In this document: positions 16,728 to 21,312 of the stretch, in pieces
How the letters are laid out: each line of letters starts with the position of its first letter
Numbering within the stretch: position 1 is the stretch's first letter
Origin: Aerococcus christensenii
Lineage (GTDB): Bacteria > Bacillota > Bacilli > Lactobacillales > Aerococcaceae
Assembly: GCF_001543105.1 (NCBI RefSeq)
Contig: NZ_CP014159.1
Coordinates: 1,178,001-1,242,000, forward strand
Direction of reading: 5' to 3'
DNA: 64,000 nt
Position numbers and translations under genes: made by a program
Notes under the pieces: generated by a model
Databases searched by the model: none
Told to the model about the DNA's origin: nothing
Seen by the model: the letters and a program-made list of their open reading frames with translations, nothing else

Positions 16728-16802
16728 TCATCCTTCATCGTTTAAATCTGACCATAGTTCCTCTAAAGTATTAAAGCTCTTCATTCTGCTCGTTCTATTC
16801 AT
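16728..16802 (-). pseudogene. 24-codon ORF in the toxin position after the antitoxin
   Basis: An ATG at 16802 overlaps the RelB-like antitoxin stop by 8 bp, as RelE-family toxin genes often do, but the frame closes after 24 codons (MNRTSRMKSFNTLEELWSDL and four more residues). It does not resemble a full toxin. It may be a remnant or chance; no function is assigned. Confidence 0.25.
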
Positions 16803-16989
16803 CGGGGTCGTCCCATTGCCCTGTGATTTGGACTTTAAAGGGTAAACCTTGACGCATGACAATTTGTCGGAAATAGATATTTATAGCTTTTGAAAAGTCC
16901 AAGCCCAAAGAATTGAGAATTTCTTGTGTATCTTCCTTTAATTGTTTGTCGATTTTAATGGTAACTGTGGTCTTTGTGTTTTGTGTCAT
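16795..16989 (-). CDS. RelB/DinJ-family antitoxin, without visible toxin
   Basis: 64 residues. TKTTVTIKIDKQLKEDTQEI followed by LGLDFSKAINIYFRQIVMRQGLPF is the ribbon-helix-helix layout of RelB/DinJ antitoxins. The ATG at 16989 is chosen because it starts the family N-terminus (MTQNTK); the frame extends upstream to 17040. In the family it represses its own operon and neutralises a RelE/YafQ-type RNase, but no toxin frame follows. A 24-codon ORF overlaps its stop instead. It is probably an orphan or a decayed module. Confidence 0.8.
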   Translation of the reverse strand: MTQNTKTTVTIKIDKQLKEDTQEILNSLGLDFSKAINIYFRQIVMRQGLPFKVQITGQWDDPDE

Positions 16990-17133
16990 AATATCGCCTT
17001 CTTTCACTTTCAATTTTAGATGTTGTTTATGTTTTGTCAAGAAAAAGAGGGGAGCAGAGCTTGTAGGCTATAAAAATCTTCAGCGAATAGGCTATGCAAA
17101 AGAGAAAAGGATGGTCTACTAAAGCTGTGGAAC

Positions 17134-17396: not shown

Positions 17397-19160
17397 TTAT
17401 TTACGACGACGGAAAGCAAATACAGAACCTGTAGAAGCAAGTGCTAAGCCCATAAGAGCTACAGAACCTGCGATAGCACCTGTCTTAGGTAATGCTTTCT
17501 TCTTAGCAGCTTTCTTGTCAGCAGCTTTCTTGTCAGCAGCCTTCTTGTCAGCAGCCTTCTTGTCAGCAGCTTTCTTGTCAGCAGCTTTCTTGTCTTCTGC
17601 TTTCTTGTCTTCTGCTTTCTTGTCTTCTGCTTTCTTGTCTTCTGCTTTTTTGCCTTCTACTTTAGCAGCTGGAACAACTTTCTTGCCGTCCATGGTTAAT
17701 TTGTAGAAGTAACGACCCATACGTTTGTTGAAGTTAACTTCGTAACCTGTGTTGATTTCGTGGTCAACTTTAAGAGCAGCTTCAGCAGCTTTCACAGCGT
17801 TTGCTTTGCTTGCGAAACCTTGGGTGTTGTCTTCGAAATGACCTTTTTCTTTGCCTTCTTCAATGGTTAATGCATAGAAGTAACGAACATCGGTTACTTT
17901 CCCTTTATCGTCTTTGTATTCATGACGAGCGATCTTGTAACCTTTGTTGATGCCATCATTTTTAAGAAGGGCATCTTCAGCAGCTTGTTCTGCGTCCACA
18001 ACAAAGTGGAAGCCTGTTTCGTTGTTTTCTTCTGCAGCAGGTTTTTCGCCTTCAGGTTTTTCGCCTTCAGGTTTTTCGCCTTCAGGTTTTTCACCTTCAG
18101 GTTTTTTATCATCAGGTTTTTCACCTTCAGGTTTTTTATCATCAGGTTTTTCACCTTCAGGTTTTTTATCATCAGGTTTTTCACCTTCAGGTTTTTTATC
18201 ATCAGGTTTTTCAGATTCTTGAGCACCTGCAAGTTGAAGAGCTTCAGTTAAAACAGCTTGGTTATCTTCACCGGTAAGAGTTGTTTTAGCATCTACCTTT
18301 TGTGCTTTAATAGTAGCATTGAGTAAGAGAAGGGCAGTCTCATAATCTGCTTTAGCAGTTTCAAGAGCTTGTTTAGCTGTGTCAACAGCTTGAACATCTT
18401 CTTGACCGTAAGCTTCAAGATTTGCTAATGCTTTTTCAGCTTTTTCAACTGCATCTTTAGCATCTTTTAAGCCAGCAGTTTCTTGATGATCTTCTGGTTT
18501 TTTGAGCTCGAGCTTCCCTTCAGCCTCTGTGATAGCTTGAATTTCTTTTTCAGCAGCCTCTTTTTTATCTTCAGCAGCCTTGTGTTTAGAAAGCACATCA
18601 GCATATTTTACATCAAGAACAGTTTTTTGATCATCATCTTTAGCTGTAGCATACGCTGTTGTATAAGCTTTGTATTCTTCACTTGCTTCAATGGCTTTGA
18701 CTTCTTTTTCAGCAGCCTTTTGTTTAGCTTCTTGTGTAGTTTTTTCAGCTGCTAAATTTTCTTTTTGTTTATTGTAGGTAGCTAATTTTGCGTCGTACTC
18801 AGCTTTTGCTTTATCTTCTTTGGCTTGAAGTTGATCACGTTTAACCTTTAAGGCTGCAATGTCAGCTTTCTTAGCAGCAATTTTGTCATCTTTTTCTGAG
18901 TCTGCTTGAACGGCTTTTTCAGCCTCTTTAACTGCAGCTTCCTTAGTCGCAATAGTTGTCTTTGCCTTCTTAACATTTTCCACTCTAGATTGTAAAGCTT
19001 CAGCGATCGCTGCACTTTCAGCTCTTGTTTTAGGTGCTGTAGCTGCAGTATTTGTTCCTTCAGCAGCAGAAGCAACGGTTGCTTCGCTAGCGAAGAATAC
19101 ACCAGCAGCTGCGGTAGTAGCGGTTGCTGCTAATAACAATTTCTTCAAATTTTTTGTCAT
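17397..19160 (-). CDS. LPXTG-anchored coiled-coil surface protein with KPE/KAED repeats
   Basis: 587 residues. In order: signal peptide ([20 protein letters not shown], cleavage likely near ATVASA); a Lys/Glu/Ala coiled coil (about 35-300); a Pro-rich wall-spanning tract of [10 protein letters not shown] units changing to EKPEG units; two related ~50-residue modules with GYKIARHE...YFYALT and GYEVNFN...YFYKLT; KKAED then KKAAD repeats; LPKTG, a hydrophobic helix and FRRRK for sortase. ATG 19160 follows AAAGGAG. Coiled-coil LPXTG proteins often bind host or surface ligands, but the ligand here is unknown. The DNA repeats make it prone to copy-number change. Confidence 0.9.
17515..17645. repeat. 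15-bp tandem repeats encoding [10 protein letters not shown]
   Basis: About nine head-to-tail copies of a 15-bp unit (minus-strand coding for Lys-Lys-Ala-Ala/Glu-Asp) lie just before the sortase signal. Two sub-types are grouped in blocks, which suggests recent duplication by slippage. Confidence 0.9.
18035..18215. repeat. 15- and 30-bp tandem repeats encoding the Pro-rich wall-spanning tract
   Basis: Four near-identical 30-bp units ([10 protein letters not shown]) follow several 15-bp units (EKPEG). Copies are nearly identical at the DNA level, consistent with slippage expansion. Confidence 0.9.
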
Positions 19161-19286
19161 ATGACATTCTCCTTTCGATATATCGAATAAAATATTGAGC
19201 AGTGAGCAGGAAGAACTTGAAAAGGAAGTACATGATCTTAAGATCCCTCTCAAAAATATGTCTTCACTATCCACTACTTTGAGTTT

Positions 19287-19315: not shown

Positions 19316-19454
19316 AAGGAAGCGATTTCTATTTTGTAACCAAATTGTTACAAAAGAAGATAGTTCTTAAGGACCTTGTTATATCAAGATCTTTGAGGAA
19401 AGTTTGCCTTTCAAGGAGAAAAATCGAAAAATTTTTCGAAAAAAATTGAGAGAG

Positions 19455-19490
19455 GAGGTTGACAAAAGGAGTCGTCAGATCGTTCTTATT
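19455..19490 (+). promoter_or_regulatory. bipartite promoter-like element, copy A (sigma gene)
   Basis: GAGGTTGACA (19455-19464), 16 bp, CGTTCTTAT (19481-19489). The same two blocks with the same spacing occur at 20221-20255 before the downstream operon, which suggests a common sigma specificity and autoregulation. Confidence 0.6.
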
Positions 19491-19496
19491 AATAAA

Positions 19497-19539
19497 AGGG
19501 GGTTCCCCCTTATACCCTATCATATATACCCTATCATAT
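19497..19539 (+). repeat. leader hairpin plus two tandem 14-bp repeats
   Basis: AGGGGGTTCCCCCT (19497-19510) can fold into a small hairpin. It is followed by two exact head-to-tail copies of ATACCCTATCATAT (19512-19525, 19526-19539), immediately before the AAAGGAGG ribosome site of the sigma-factor gene. Confidence 0.75.
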
Positions 19540-19555
19540 AAAGGAGGCGTTTGAA

Positions 19556-20203
19556 ATGGAACGGAAATTTCAGGGTGAAGATGTGAAGTGGAAAGAAGAA
19601 TGGTTAGATGGAGAAGGTAATCATGAAGAATGGAGAGATTTGACAGGAGAGGAGCGCGAGATTTTTATTCTGAAGAAGTTTGAGGGTATTCCTCGCAAGG
19701 TCTTGGCACGCTACAGTCATAAGATCAGTCGGGCGGATTATGATGATTACTTGCAGGAGCTGCGGTTGAAGCTGTGGTTCTTGGTGAAGAAGTTCGATGG
19801 CGACTGCCTGGGTGAGGATAAGCCGCGCTTCATTGCCTATGCTACGCAGGGTTTACAGTGGAAGATGATCGAGTTATTGCGCAAGCAATCTCGGGAACAG
19901 AAGCGGTGTATTTGTGTGGACTGGCAGGAAGATATGGATAGCTGGGCCTTGGAGAACTTGCCTTGGCGAGATCCAGGGATGTCTTCTGAGGAGAGGGAGC
20001 GCATAGAGCGGGAATACTTGATGCTGGCATCGGAGGTTCTGTCGACGAGTGATTGGGAGATTTTCCAGGCCCTCTTTCAGAAGCGAGCCTTGGTGACGGA
20101 ATTAGCGAGAGAGCGGGGGATTACTCGGCAAGCTATGTATAAGCGGGTGAAGCGGATCTACCAGTCTTTGAAGGAGGTCTTGAAGTTTTTATTCGAGGAT
20201 TAG
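19556..20203 (+). CDS. sigma-70-family alternative sigma factor
   Basis: 215 residues. DYDDYLQELRLKLWFLVKKF and RFIAYATQGLQWKMIELLRK fit region 2 (core binding and -10 recognition); TELARERGITRQAMYKRVKRI near the C-terminus is a region 4 helix-turn-helix. There is no region 1 or 3, as in small SigH/ComX/phage-type sigma factors. AAAGGAGG precedes the ATG by 8 bp. No anti-sigma gene is evident. It is followed by three small genes behind a copy of its own upstream element. It could be a ComX-like competence sigma factor, but I see no competence genes adjacent. Confidence 0.75.
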   Translation: MERKFQGEDVKWKEEWLDGEGNHEEWRDLTGEEREIFILKKFEGIPRKVLARYSHKISRADYDDYLQELRLKLWFLVKKFDGDCLGEDKPRFIAYATQGLQWKMIELLRKQSREQKRCICVDWQEDMDSWALENLPWRDPGMSSEERERIEREYLMLASEVLSTSDWEIFQALFQKRALVTELARERGITRQAMYKRVKRIYQSLKEVLKFLFED

Positions 20204-20220
20204 GAAGAATTTTTGGATAA

Positions 20221-20258
20221 GAGGTTGACAAGGGAGAGGCTAAGAGCGTTTTTATAAG
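20221..20258 (+). promoter_or_regulatory. bipartite promoter-like element, copy B (DUF operon)
   Basis: GAGGTTGACA (20221-20230), 16 bp, CGTTTTTAT (20247-20255). This is the partner of copy A before the sigma gene. A conventional TATAAG at 20253-20258 would have a 22-bp spacer, too long for the housekeeping sigma. Confidence 0.6.
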
Positions 20259-20314
20259 TGTAAGCGGCTTACAAAAGAAGAATAGTAAAGGACAGTAAGA
20301 AAGGAGCTTGACTG

Positions 20315-20512
20315 ATGAAGGCTTTTAGTAAGGGACAGTTGAATATTGAGACGACGGTGACAGGGACGGATAAGCGTGTGGTGTATGTGATGAAGGACTT
20401 GGTAGAGGACGTGACGGATGAGAAGGTATTGAAGGTACGTGACGCAGTAGCGGGTCTTTTGGTGGATCCGATTGATGGGATGAGCGCAACGATGGTTTAT
20501 CAATTTTCTTAG
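20315..20512 (+). CDS. DUF1659-like small protein
   Basis: 65 residues: a beta-rich N-terminal half (GQLNIETTVTGTDKRVVYVM) followed by VTDEKVLKVRDAVAGLL. The layout of strands, then a short acidic linker and one helix, resembles DUF1659, whose members commonly sit beside DUF2922 genes in Firmicutes. Function is unknown in the family. GAAAGGAG precedes the ATG. It is the first gene of a three-gene operon with the DUF2922 and membrane proteins, behind the shared bipartite element. Confidence 0.6.
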   Translation: MKAFSKGQLNIETTVTGTDKRVVYVMKDLVEDVTDEKVLKVRDAVAGLLVDPIDGMSATMVYQFS

Positions 20513-20524
20513 GAGGGGTAGAGA

Positions 20525-20770
20525 ATGAGTCAAGTAGAGACAACTTTAGAGCTATTATTTAAGACGAGTGATCACAAGCGGAAGACTGTGCGCTTTAAGC
20601 GGCCTAAGGAGAACTTGACAGAGGCAGAGGTGAAGCCGGCCTTGTCAGCCATCCAGTCAGTGAAGATCTTCAAGGGGTTGGAAGGCGTAGATCCTTATGC
20701 GGAAGTCCTCGGCGCCCAATATGTGAAGCGTGAAGTGGTCGGTATCTATTCCAAAGCAACTGCCGAATAG
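20525..20770 (+). CDS. DUF2922 family small protein
   Basis: 81 residues. TTLELLFKTSDHKRKTVRF, then PKENLTEAEVKPALSAIQ and VLGAQYVKREV, follow the DUF2922 pattern (strand pair, DLTxEEVxxAM-like helix, final GAxxVxRE strand). Function is unknown. AGGAGGGG precedes the ATG, 12 bp after the upstream gene. No signal peptide or membrane segment is seen. Confidence 0.75.
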   Translation: MSQVETTLELLFKTSDHKRKTVRFKRPKENLTEAEVKPALSAIQSVKIFKGLEGVDPYAEVLGAQYVKREVVGIYSKATAE

Positions 20771-20805
20771 GAAAGACCTGGGCGGTAGAAGAAGGGAGGT
20801 ATAGG

Positions 20806-21069
20806 ATGTTGACAGTGGCGAGTTATGGATCGGCAATTCTGGTGGTTGTGACTTTGGTGGTGAAGCTCTTCCACTTGGTGAATGCCATCCAGATCTTGAT
20901 CTTGAAGCTGTATTGCTTGGAAGATTGGGTGAAGGAAGCGGAAGAGCAGAACAGCCTTTGGCGGCAGTCCCTTCGCATGATGGAGGAGCGACTGGTGAGG
21001 TTAGAGCGTCAGGTGGATCCCACTCTAGGGGGAAGTCCTTTCCTCTCTTCGGGGCGGGAAAGGGCTTGA
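20806..21069 (+). CDS. small single-pass membrane protein of the sigma/DUF cassette
   Basis: 87 residues: an N-terminal hydrophobic helix (about residues 8-35) followed by an amphipathic, probably coiled-coil stretch (WVKEAEEQNSLWRQSLRMME) and a basic tail. The position corresponds to the YvrJ-type membrane protein found in similar DUF1659-DUF2922 clusters, although it is longer, and I cannot confirm family membership. GAAGGGAGG precedes the ATG. Confidence 0.6.
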   Translation: MLTVASYGSAILVVVTLVVKLFHLVNAIQILILKLYCLEDWVKEAEEQNSLWRQSLRMMEERLVRLERQVDPTLGGSPFLSSGRERA

Positions 21070-21122
21070 GTAGACGGCATGTGTTGAAGTAGTAACGAGC
21101 AGACATTCTCCAGTTTGAGAGG

Positions 21123-21155
21123 TAGACGAGCTTACCTTGAGCTCGTCTATTTCTT
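21123..21155 (+). terminator. terminator of the sigma/DUF cassette
   Basis: TAGACGAGCT and AGCTCGTCTA stem with a 7-base loop, then a short T-rich tail. Confidence 0.75.
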
Positions 21156-21261
21156 GAGAAATTGAGACGGTTACTTGTGAGGGACCTGCTGTGAGAGTCC
21201 TTGATGCTTGCGAGCTGAATGAGAGACTGGCGAGGTACCTATTCTATAGAAGAAAGACAAT

Positions 21262-21312
21262 AAAAAATCCTTCCTAAGGAGAGCTAGAAGCTCTGTTTAG
21301 GAAGGATTTTTT
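21262..21312 (-). terminator. bidirectional terminator at the mevalonate operon end
   Basis: AAAAAATCCTTCCTAA pairs with TTTAGGAAGGATTTTTT; A- and T-tracts flank the stem, so it can act on both strands. It lies 30 bp beyond the fni stop. Confidence 0.88.

Follow-up and report, generated by a model that had tools for sequence, protein, structure and literature searches.

In Aerococcus christensenii, a gene for a small sigma-70 family factor and the operon behind it, which encodes a DUF1659 protein, a DUF2922 protein and a third small protein (the cassette), are each preceded by the same promoter-like element. Both lie in a 64,000-nucleotide (nt) stretch of contig NZ_CP014159.1 (parent genome 1,634,920 bases), and this whole stretch is referred to here as the window. 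A dedicated pairing of sigma factor and promoter is well supported by sequence comparison, and the sigma factor would be expected to read these promoters. On balance, we favor the view that it acts as a dedicated, single-target activator of an envelope-opening module built round DUF1659 and DUF2922, which looks like an unnamed, tightly controlled cell-opening system. Lysis or release may be the output, the two DUF proteins may have a part in it, and the switch may be bistable. New here are the lysis-type character of the cassette in relatives and a promoter-proximal hairpin whose stem covaries and whose loop is usually self-complementary. The features that carry the argument are as follows.

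19455..19489, plus strand: sigma-gene promoter element, with TTGACA at 19459-19464 and CGTTCTTAT at 19481-19489; score 13.3 with a matrix from other genomes
19556..20203, plus strand: sigma-70 family factor, 215 amino acids (aa), of extracytoplasmic function (ECF)-like size, with regions 2 and 4 (TIGR02937, 46.4 bits; cut-off 42.9)
20221..20255, plus strand: cassette promoter element, with TTGACA at 20225-20230 and CGTTTTTAT at 20247-20255; also a training row of the covariance model R1
20259..20273, plus strand: hairpin TGTAAG-CGG-CTTACA, its stem conserved with covariation in relatives
20315..20512, plus strand: DUF1659 protein, 65 aa (22.7 bits, slightly below the cut-off of 24.1; position and alignment support the assignment)
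20525..20770, plus strand: DUF2922 protein, 81 aa (63.2 bits; cut-off 25.5)
20806..21069, plus strand: 87-aa protein with one N-terminal hydrophobic stretch and then a charged, coiled-coil-like part (hydropathy and hidden Markov model, HMM)

The original prediction held that the sigma gene and the cassette share one element, and this is exact: the pattern GAGGTTGACA-N16-CGTTYTTAT matches the window twice, at 19455-19489 and 20221-20255. The whole-genome search that it had proposed returned only these two copies, with no third at up to three mismatches in either the window or the 1,634,920 bases. After dinucleotide shuffling, the window held 0.03 matches on average and reached two in none of 100 rounds. 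Since the genome holds no extra site and a reversed control pattern gave 2+2 genomic matches at up to three mismatches, the exact pair, 766 bp apart before two neighboring genes, is not chance. Models trained on relatives pointed to the same places. A -35/-10 matrix built from 37 distinct sites, all in other genomes, was scored on both strands of the window and ranked the cassette copy first (14.5) and the sigma copy second (13.3), the next score being 9.0. Similarly, a two-block motif learned from 65 family loci, with the window's own locus excluded, scored the cassette promoter at 17.4, followed by the same site shifted (10.8) and then by 8.8. Because these family-trained matrices rank the window's own elements at the top, the motif is the local form of a family-wide ECF-type promoter.

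Across the family, the two-block motif consists of GGTAACAC, most often 17 nt, and TTnTTATAgGTGTA, with CG commonly forming the final two spacer bases, and the -35/-10 consensus is GGGTAACAC, mostly 15 bp, and CGTTTTTATA. The cassette -35 is thus either GGTAACAC or GTTGACA, followed after about 15 bp by CGTTnTTATA and then by the hairpin; in relatives the -35 becomes GGTAACAC and the CGTTnTTATA part is unchanged. Some of the family loci hold no convincing site. An AAC-type -35 combined with a CGT-type -10 at about 16 bp is characteristic of ECF-style promoters.

To extend the comparison, the covariance model R1 (25 sequences including the window's own site; six base pairs) was applied to 76 genomes of the family, from which 66 DUF2922-centered loci had been fetched; these are not all copies, as some g19 genomes with very similar matches were left out. 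The window's cassette site, itself among the training rows, was recovered at an expectation value (E) of 7.2e-5. R1 produced 53 matches in 47 family genomes; 48 stood immediately ahead of a DUF1659 or DUF2922 gene (25 of the 48 being training rows); of the other five, one preceded a truncated DUF1659 copy (G002) and four were weak (E 0.035-0.099). Among 198 genomes of the order, 61 were positive at E 0.01, in 19 of 54 genera, and 52 of these positives fell outside the training family. Forty out-of-family sites were read, in four families (f2, 9; f4, 3; f46, 9; f48, 19), and DUF2922 lay downstream at 39 and DUF1659 at 38; the sole exception (G334) was the weakest site read (E 0.0084). Two further genomes among the 52 positives, G152 and G188, carry the cassette. 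The comparison of upstream regions, suggested earlier as a check, has therefore found the element retained before homologous cassettes, the absence of which had been named as grounds for rejecting the idea. In addition, R1 sites nearly always number one per genome across the order, with few extra matches (two in G323, four in G377), and the element thus appears to be close to a one-operon mark per genome, in line with the tiny regulon originally proposed. As a side observation, three of the G377 matches (C1, positions 752770, 825893 and 899016; E 0.004) recur at an exact spacing of 73,123 bases, which indicates a long repeat or an assembly artefact.

The sigma factor itself has ECF-like properties. 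A single TIGR02937 match spans residues 50-208, so that regions 2 and 4, and only these, lie within one protein, its length falls in the range of about 170-220 aa, and the score exceeds the model's cut-off; four relatives' proteins scored 45-56 bits. Group V (TcdR/UviA-like) sigma factors form a clade distinct from ECF factors, and their promoters are interchangeable. No group V-named model appeared among the model matches of the window's sigma factor and the four relatives' factors, and the general TIGR02937 cut-off was the only one passed. With a profile of 30 rows, sigma orthologues in the 76 family genomes scored at least 107 bits, against about 50 or less for other sigma factors (fragments in G016 excepted), and an orthologue was found in 66, the window's genome included. 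All 66 also carry DUF2922, which occurs without the orthologue in two genomes (G009 and G040, or 2/68 of those with DUF2922), while eight genomes have neither and none has the sigma factor only (Fisher p = 2e-9, a test that treats genomes as independent, which they are not). In about a dozen family genomes the sigma gene and the cassette lie apart, and both are retained. Within a sample of 200 genomes of the class, a sigma match at E 1e-18 was obtained in 12 (the window's genome included) and DUF2922 in 121, so that other Bacilli, in which the cassette is common and the sigma factor rare, presumably drive it differently.

What the relatives add is a set of genes for opening the envelope. Tallies in the 66 family loci, based on phmmer searches with ten reference proteins and counted within fixed distances, gave a wall hydrolase at 49, a holin at 30, either at 51 and neither at 15. 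Ten proteins encoded downstream in relatives were tested singly, and comprised seven hydrolase architectures (Amidase_2+LysM, Glucosaminidase+CHAP, CHAP+CW_7, Glucosaminidase+Amidase_2, Amidase_2+SH3_5, Amidase_5 and Amidase_2+CW_7) together with holins of the Dp-1, Hol44 and 4_1 families. A batch of 64 proteins, hand-picked from 97 listed with unlikely operon members omitted, contained CHAP (23), CW_7 (22), Amidase_2 (19), Dp-1 holin (15), Glucosaminidase (13), LysM (13), Amidase_5 (2), holin 4_1 (2), Hol44 (1) and one HAD hydrolase. The lysis genes at family loci are thus of interchangeable types. In the window's own genus, where the sigma gene is split from the cassette, an amidase-like gene stands behind the sigma gene in six genomes (Amidase_3 in 4/4 tested). 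In G034, genes for a membrane protein, for a holin of the Dp-1 family and for a CHAP lysin stand behind the sigma gene. At the 40 sites read outside the family, a hydrolase lies downstream in 11 cases (GH25 at 7, Amidase_2 at 3, phage lysozyme at 1), distributed as 5/9 in f2, 3/3 in f4, 3/9 in f46 and 0/19 in f48. The grouping of sigma factor, holin and hydrolase in one locus is accordingly a property of relatives and not of the window, where neither holin nor hydrolase gene lies downstream of the cassette, as at 14 other family loci. Lysis genes are not obligatory, given their absence from these loci and from the 19 f48 sites. A holin or hydrolase gene was probably lost from the window's locus. 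The genome encodes two CHAP proteins, both away from it; a search for Dp-1 holins gave a weak negative in which no control rang, as did a protein search for Amidase_3, run without a positive control. The earlier description of the operon as three small proteins without known function is therefore incomplete, as the locus in relatives carries holin and wall-hydrolase genes. Beside these tallies, f48 loci such as L319 show a yidD-like gene behind DUF2922 (YidD confirmed in the one case tested, L319) and, by eye, often glycosylase-like genes ahead of the cassette.

The proposed mechanism would run as follows. In response to a signal the sigma gene would be expressed, and its product would direct RNA polymerase to the ECF-like promoter before one operon per genome; in the window's genome it would also read its own promoter, creating positive feedback and a self-amplifying switch. 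The operon has a DUF1659-DUF2922 core, to which most relatives in the family add a small membrane protein, a phage-type holin and/or a wall hydrolase. The most likely output would be a controlled opening of the envelope, with the wall hydrolase freed via the holin, and the result, in part of the population, would be either lysis or release without it. DUF1659 and DUF2922 could be cargo or timing factors of the membrane step; they may also have a role of their own, as suggested by their constancy where lysis genes are absent.

The self-amplifying part of this scheme is local. The original prediction of an autoregulated switch agrees with the window's genome, where the target promoter precedes the sigma gene (13.3), and is not supported as a general feature. 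An upstream scan of 46 other sigma genes reached 6.7 at best, with 99% of control pieces below 7.6, and 14 unlinked sigma loci gave at most 5.4 just upstream. In total, the element was found upstream of the sigma gene at 0/60 other loci (G007 being partly masked). Some sigma starts had been called too far upstream by the open reading frame (ORF) rule, and a rescan of all 61 with wider limits returned the same top values. Given this absence, the auto-promoter is best read as an addition in this genome or species and not as a rule. The sigma copy also lacks the conserved hairpin of the cassette copy, and two other repeats flank it.

19386..19393, no strand assigned: palindrome AAGATCTT upstream of the sigma gene, a possible operator or leader structure
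19496..19511, plus strand: inverted repeat AAGGGGGTTCCCCCTT just past the sigma promoter, its sequence unlike the cassette hairpin

Sigma leaders of relatives in several genera likewise hold perfect palindromes of varying sequence (CAAGATCTTG, CAAGGCCTTG, CTGAGGCCTCAG, GCAAGCTTGC and ACCTGCAGGT; L093-L158, L281-L294), of which CAAGATCTTG, CAAGGCCTTG or CTGAGGCCTCAG often stands some 35-50 nt ahead of the called sigma start in several relatives. These may possibly be operators or, again, self-complementary RNA.

Directly behind the -10 of the cassette promoter, an inverted repeat of at least 4 bp is present in 47 of 49 distinct family sites, against 40% in shuffles, and would probably form a hairpin at the mRNA 5' end. 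In an alignment of 48 model matches (47 distinct), which was fitted to the stem and hence is biased towards it, 94% of cells pair, compared with 15-51% in slid controls, and cells changed on both sides number 23, against 8.1 +/- 2.2 in shuffles. A stem change from AU to GC occurs in 17 sequences and, together with the slid controls, provides strong support for the stem. Rfam returned two matches far below cut-off, neither at the hairpin. The loops have a distinct property: among 45 distinct loops of at least 6 nt, 35 contain a self-complementary stretch of at least 6 nt, whereas shuffled loops do so in 10% (maximum 26.7% in 2000 rounds). These palindromes fall into 15 different strings that share about 12 distinct cores, among them GTCATGAC, GTGATCAC, GCGCGC, TCCGGA and GTCGAC. 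Of the 32 distinct loops holding one, 16 have a 5' flank of 2 nt. The window's own loop (CGG) is not self-complementary. As the property is conserved while the sequence changes, pairing between two molecules (kissing loops) is suggested in preference to the operator of one protein, and loop-loop pairing between two transcripts may be envisaged. A further-reaching proposal, which we regard as rather unlikely, combines these elements: an order-wide single-target sigma factor would drive a lysis-type operon whose mRNA opens with a self-complementary-loop hairpin, two transcripts would kiss, and DUF1659 and DUF2922 would be the first proteins known to rely on this kind of control, whether as cargo or as timers for the holin. 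Dimerization would make expression scale roughly with the square of the transcript level, a built-in threshold that could hold a harmful operon silent while the sigma factor is less than fully active.

Several alternatives must be weighed against these interpretations. That the repeat behind the -10 is the DNA operator of a repressor and not an RNA hairpin is a serious possibility, although we do not favor it: the outer arms, TGTA...TACA, vary little, the repeat overlaps the expected transcription start and some sites are perfect DNA palindromes, but an arm spacing that varies from 3 to 16 nt and an inner palindrome lying off-center in the stem in 26 of 32 distinct loops would both be awkward for a single DNA-bound dimer, and the stem pairs covary. 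For the element itself, it is highly improbable that an ordinary housekeeping promoter occurs twice in similar form by chance. TTGACA is, as is generally known, the sigma-70 consensus -35; nevertheless, no TATAAT-like hexamer occurs at a spacing of 16-19 bp in the shared element, the -35 of relatives shifts to GGTAACAC while CGTTnTTATA persists, and there is about one site per genome. A prophage remnant is also improbable. Relatives do carry phage-type holins and endolysins, but the window's neighboring genes resemble housekeeping genes (labels assigned by eye), a tblastn search of the window's DUF2922 and sigma proteins against 50,697 phage records gave no match at E 1e-3, and across the order the site nearly always occurs singly.

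The most consequential alternative is that the core of sigma factor, DUF1659 and DUF2922 has a function other than lysis (e.g., envelope stress or a signal), with lysis genes joining later as passengers on a tightly closed promoter. We consider this possible, if less than probable. It accords with the lack of a lysis gene at the window's locus, at 14 other family loci and at all 19 f48 sites, where a yidD-like gene is often downstream, and with the many Bacilli that hold DUF1659-DUF2922-YvrJ with no sigma orthologue found; the f48 result both lowers our estimate of the envelope-opening reading and raises that of the passengers. Further points also weigh against envelope opening under direct sigma control. 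At two of the 49 family loci with a hydrolase (L108 and L110), the hydrolase gene lies between the sigma gene and the cassette promoter and not behind the cassette, and no holin family gave a match to the window's third cassette protein. At E 0.1, R1 has no hit in 29 of the 76 family genomes, and some of these do carry the cassette. Outside the family, a sigma gene was found within about 1.4 kb upstream at just 15 of the 40 sites, a search confined to that upstream stretch, and untagged upstream genes of fitting size resemble, by eye, other enzymes; moreover, a sigma gene next to its target is weak evidence of direct control. On the other hand, a passenger origin does not readily fit the many kinds of unrelated hydrolase and holin that different genera carry at this one locus, the hydrolase that stays with the sigma gene when the locus splits, or the single tested loci of other Bacilli whose third position holds YvrJ or a holin of the BhlA or 4_1 family. 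The envelope-opening module is retained as the preferred reading.

With regard to the cassette proteins, DUF2922 is predicted to fold as strand-strand-helix-strand (predicted local distance difference test score of 86), and DUF1659 and DUF2922 are probably distant paralogues. The 87-aa protein has no family match in Pfam, NCBIfam or PHROGs; an HMM built up from its sequence finds members at 31 of the 66 family loci (the window's included) and at 0/40 out-of-family loci, and it occupies the slot of the YvrJ or holin protein in other Bacilli. There, the proteins behind DUF2922 that were tested singly were identified as YvrJ (two), a BhlA holin, a holin of the 4_1 family and an M15/VanY peptidase; one further small protein gave no meaningful match. 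Downstream of the operon, one further feature was noted by eye.

21261..21312, no strand assigned: long inverted repeat with A and T runs, a likely terminator between the operon and the opposing next gene

A consensus terminator scan found nothing right behind the third gene, and this repeat was absent from its list. Upstream of cassettes without an adjacent sigma gene in other Bacilli (L189-L248), a recurrent pattern was seen by eye, roughly TGTCCTTTT followed by TATATAG and GTGAAAGGAGGTGA, which is perhaps read by a different sigma factor. Two loci, L156 (G046; Pfam check on this one) and L157 (G040), hold a second DUF2922 type without DUF1659, upstream of the ribosomal protein genes for S12 and S7 and with a promoter-like element of E about 0.03. 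Three genomes of the class (G181, G192 and G214) have three or four DUF2922 copies each, and L232 in G192 holds a masked run. In the window, a minus-strand gene for a surface-type protein (17397-19274), with KKAAD repeats, two DUF5633 stretches and an LPKTG-type end, adjoins the sigma gene, and a RelB-family antitoxin ORF lies at 16795-17040 on the minus strand (30.7 bits; cut-off 22.4).

Among the literature matches listed, judged for function by titles and abstract openings, none concerned the function of the DUF1659, DUF2922 or YvrJ families, or this module. DUF1659 and DUF2922, widespread without an assigned role, gain a testable setting that consists of a single promoter, a sigma factor dedicated to it and, in many cases, holin and hydrolase partners. 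If the envelope-opening reading is true, many bacteria of the order hold a switchable module to open their own envelope, which would bear on the release of DNA and protein and on heterogeneity within populations. The self-complementary hairpin, if it acts as suggested, would offer a rare example of mRNA molecules pairing to functional effect.

The closest parallels appear to be clostridial loci in which a sigma-70 factor, a holin and an endolysin occur together. In UviA-UviB-Bcn5 loci, the sigma factor is reported to lie always beside a BhlA-family holin and an amidase (PMC9527704). Relatives of the window's locus share this grouping of sigma factor, holin and hydrolase, a likeness at the level of locus description; they differ in that no bacteriocin was seen, the core is DUF1659/DUF2922, the promoter carries a conserved hairpin, and several families of one order are involved. 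Features reported for the TcdR-TcdE type are a dedicated sigma factor with a bistable promoter (PMC10467148), autoregulation by TcdR-type sigma factors (PMC11237016) and holin and endolysin genes nearby (PMC9527704). Unlike this type, the cassette has no toxin, its sigma factor passes only the general TIGR02937 cut-off, and the auto-promoter is seen in the window's genome only. Bacillus subtilis SigO-RsoA is a special sigma system whose targets include yvrJ (PMC8103513), and YvrJ occupies the third slot of DUF1659-DUF2922 cassettes in other Bacilli (two loci, Pfam). SigO-RsoA splits its activity over two proteins and also drives oxdC, whereas the window's sigma factor is one protein and, judged by the element, would serve one operon. 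Finally, in type 10 secretion systems, chromosomal holin and endolysin genes serve release; the cases listed differ in being Gram-negative, apart from clostridial work, and in having other regulators.

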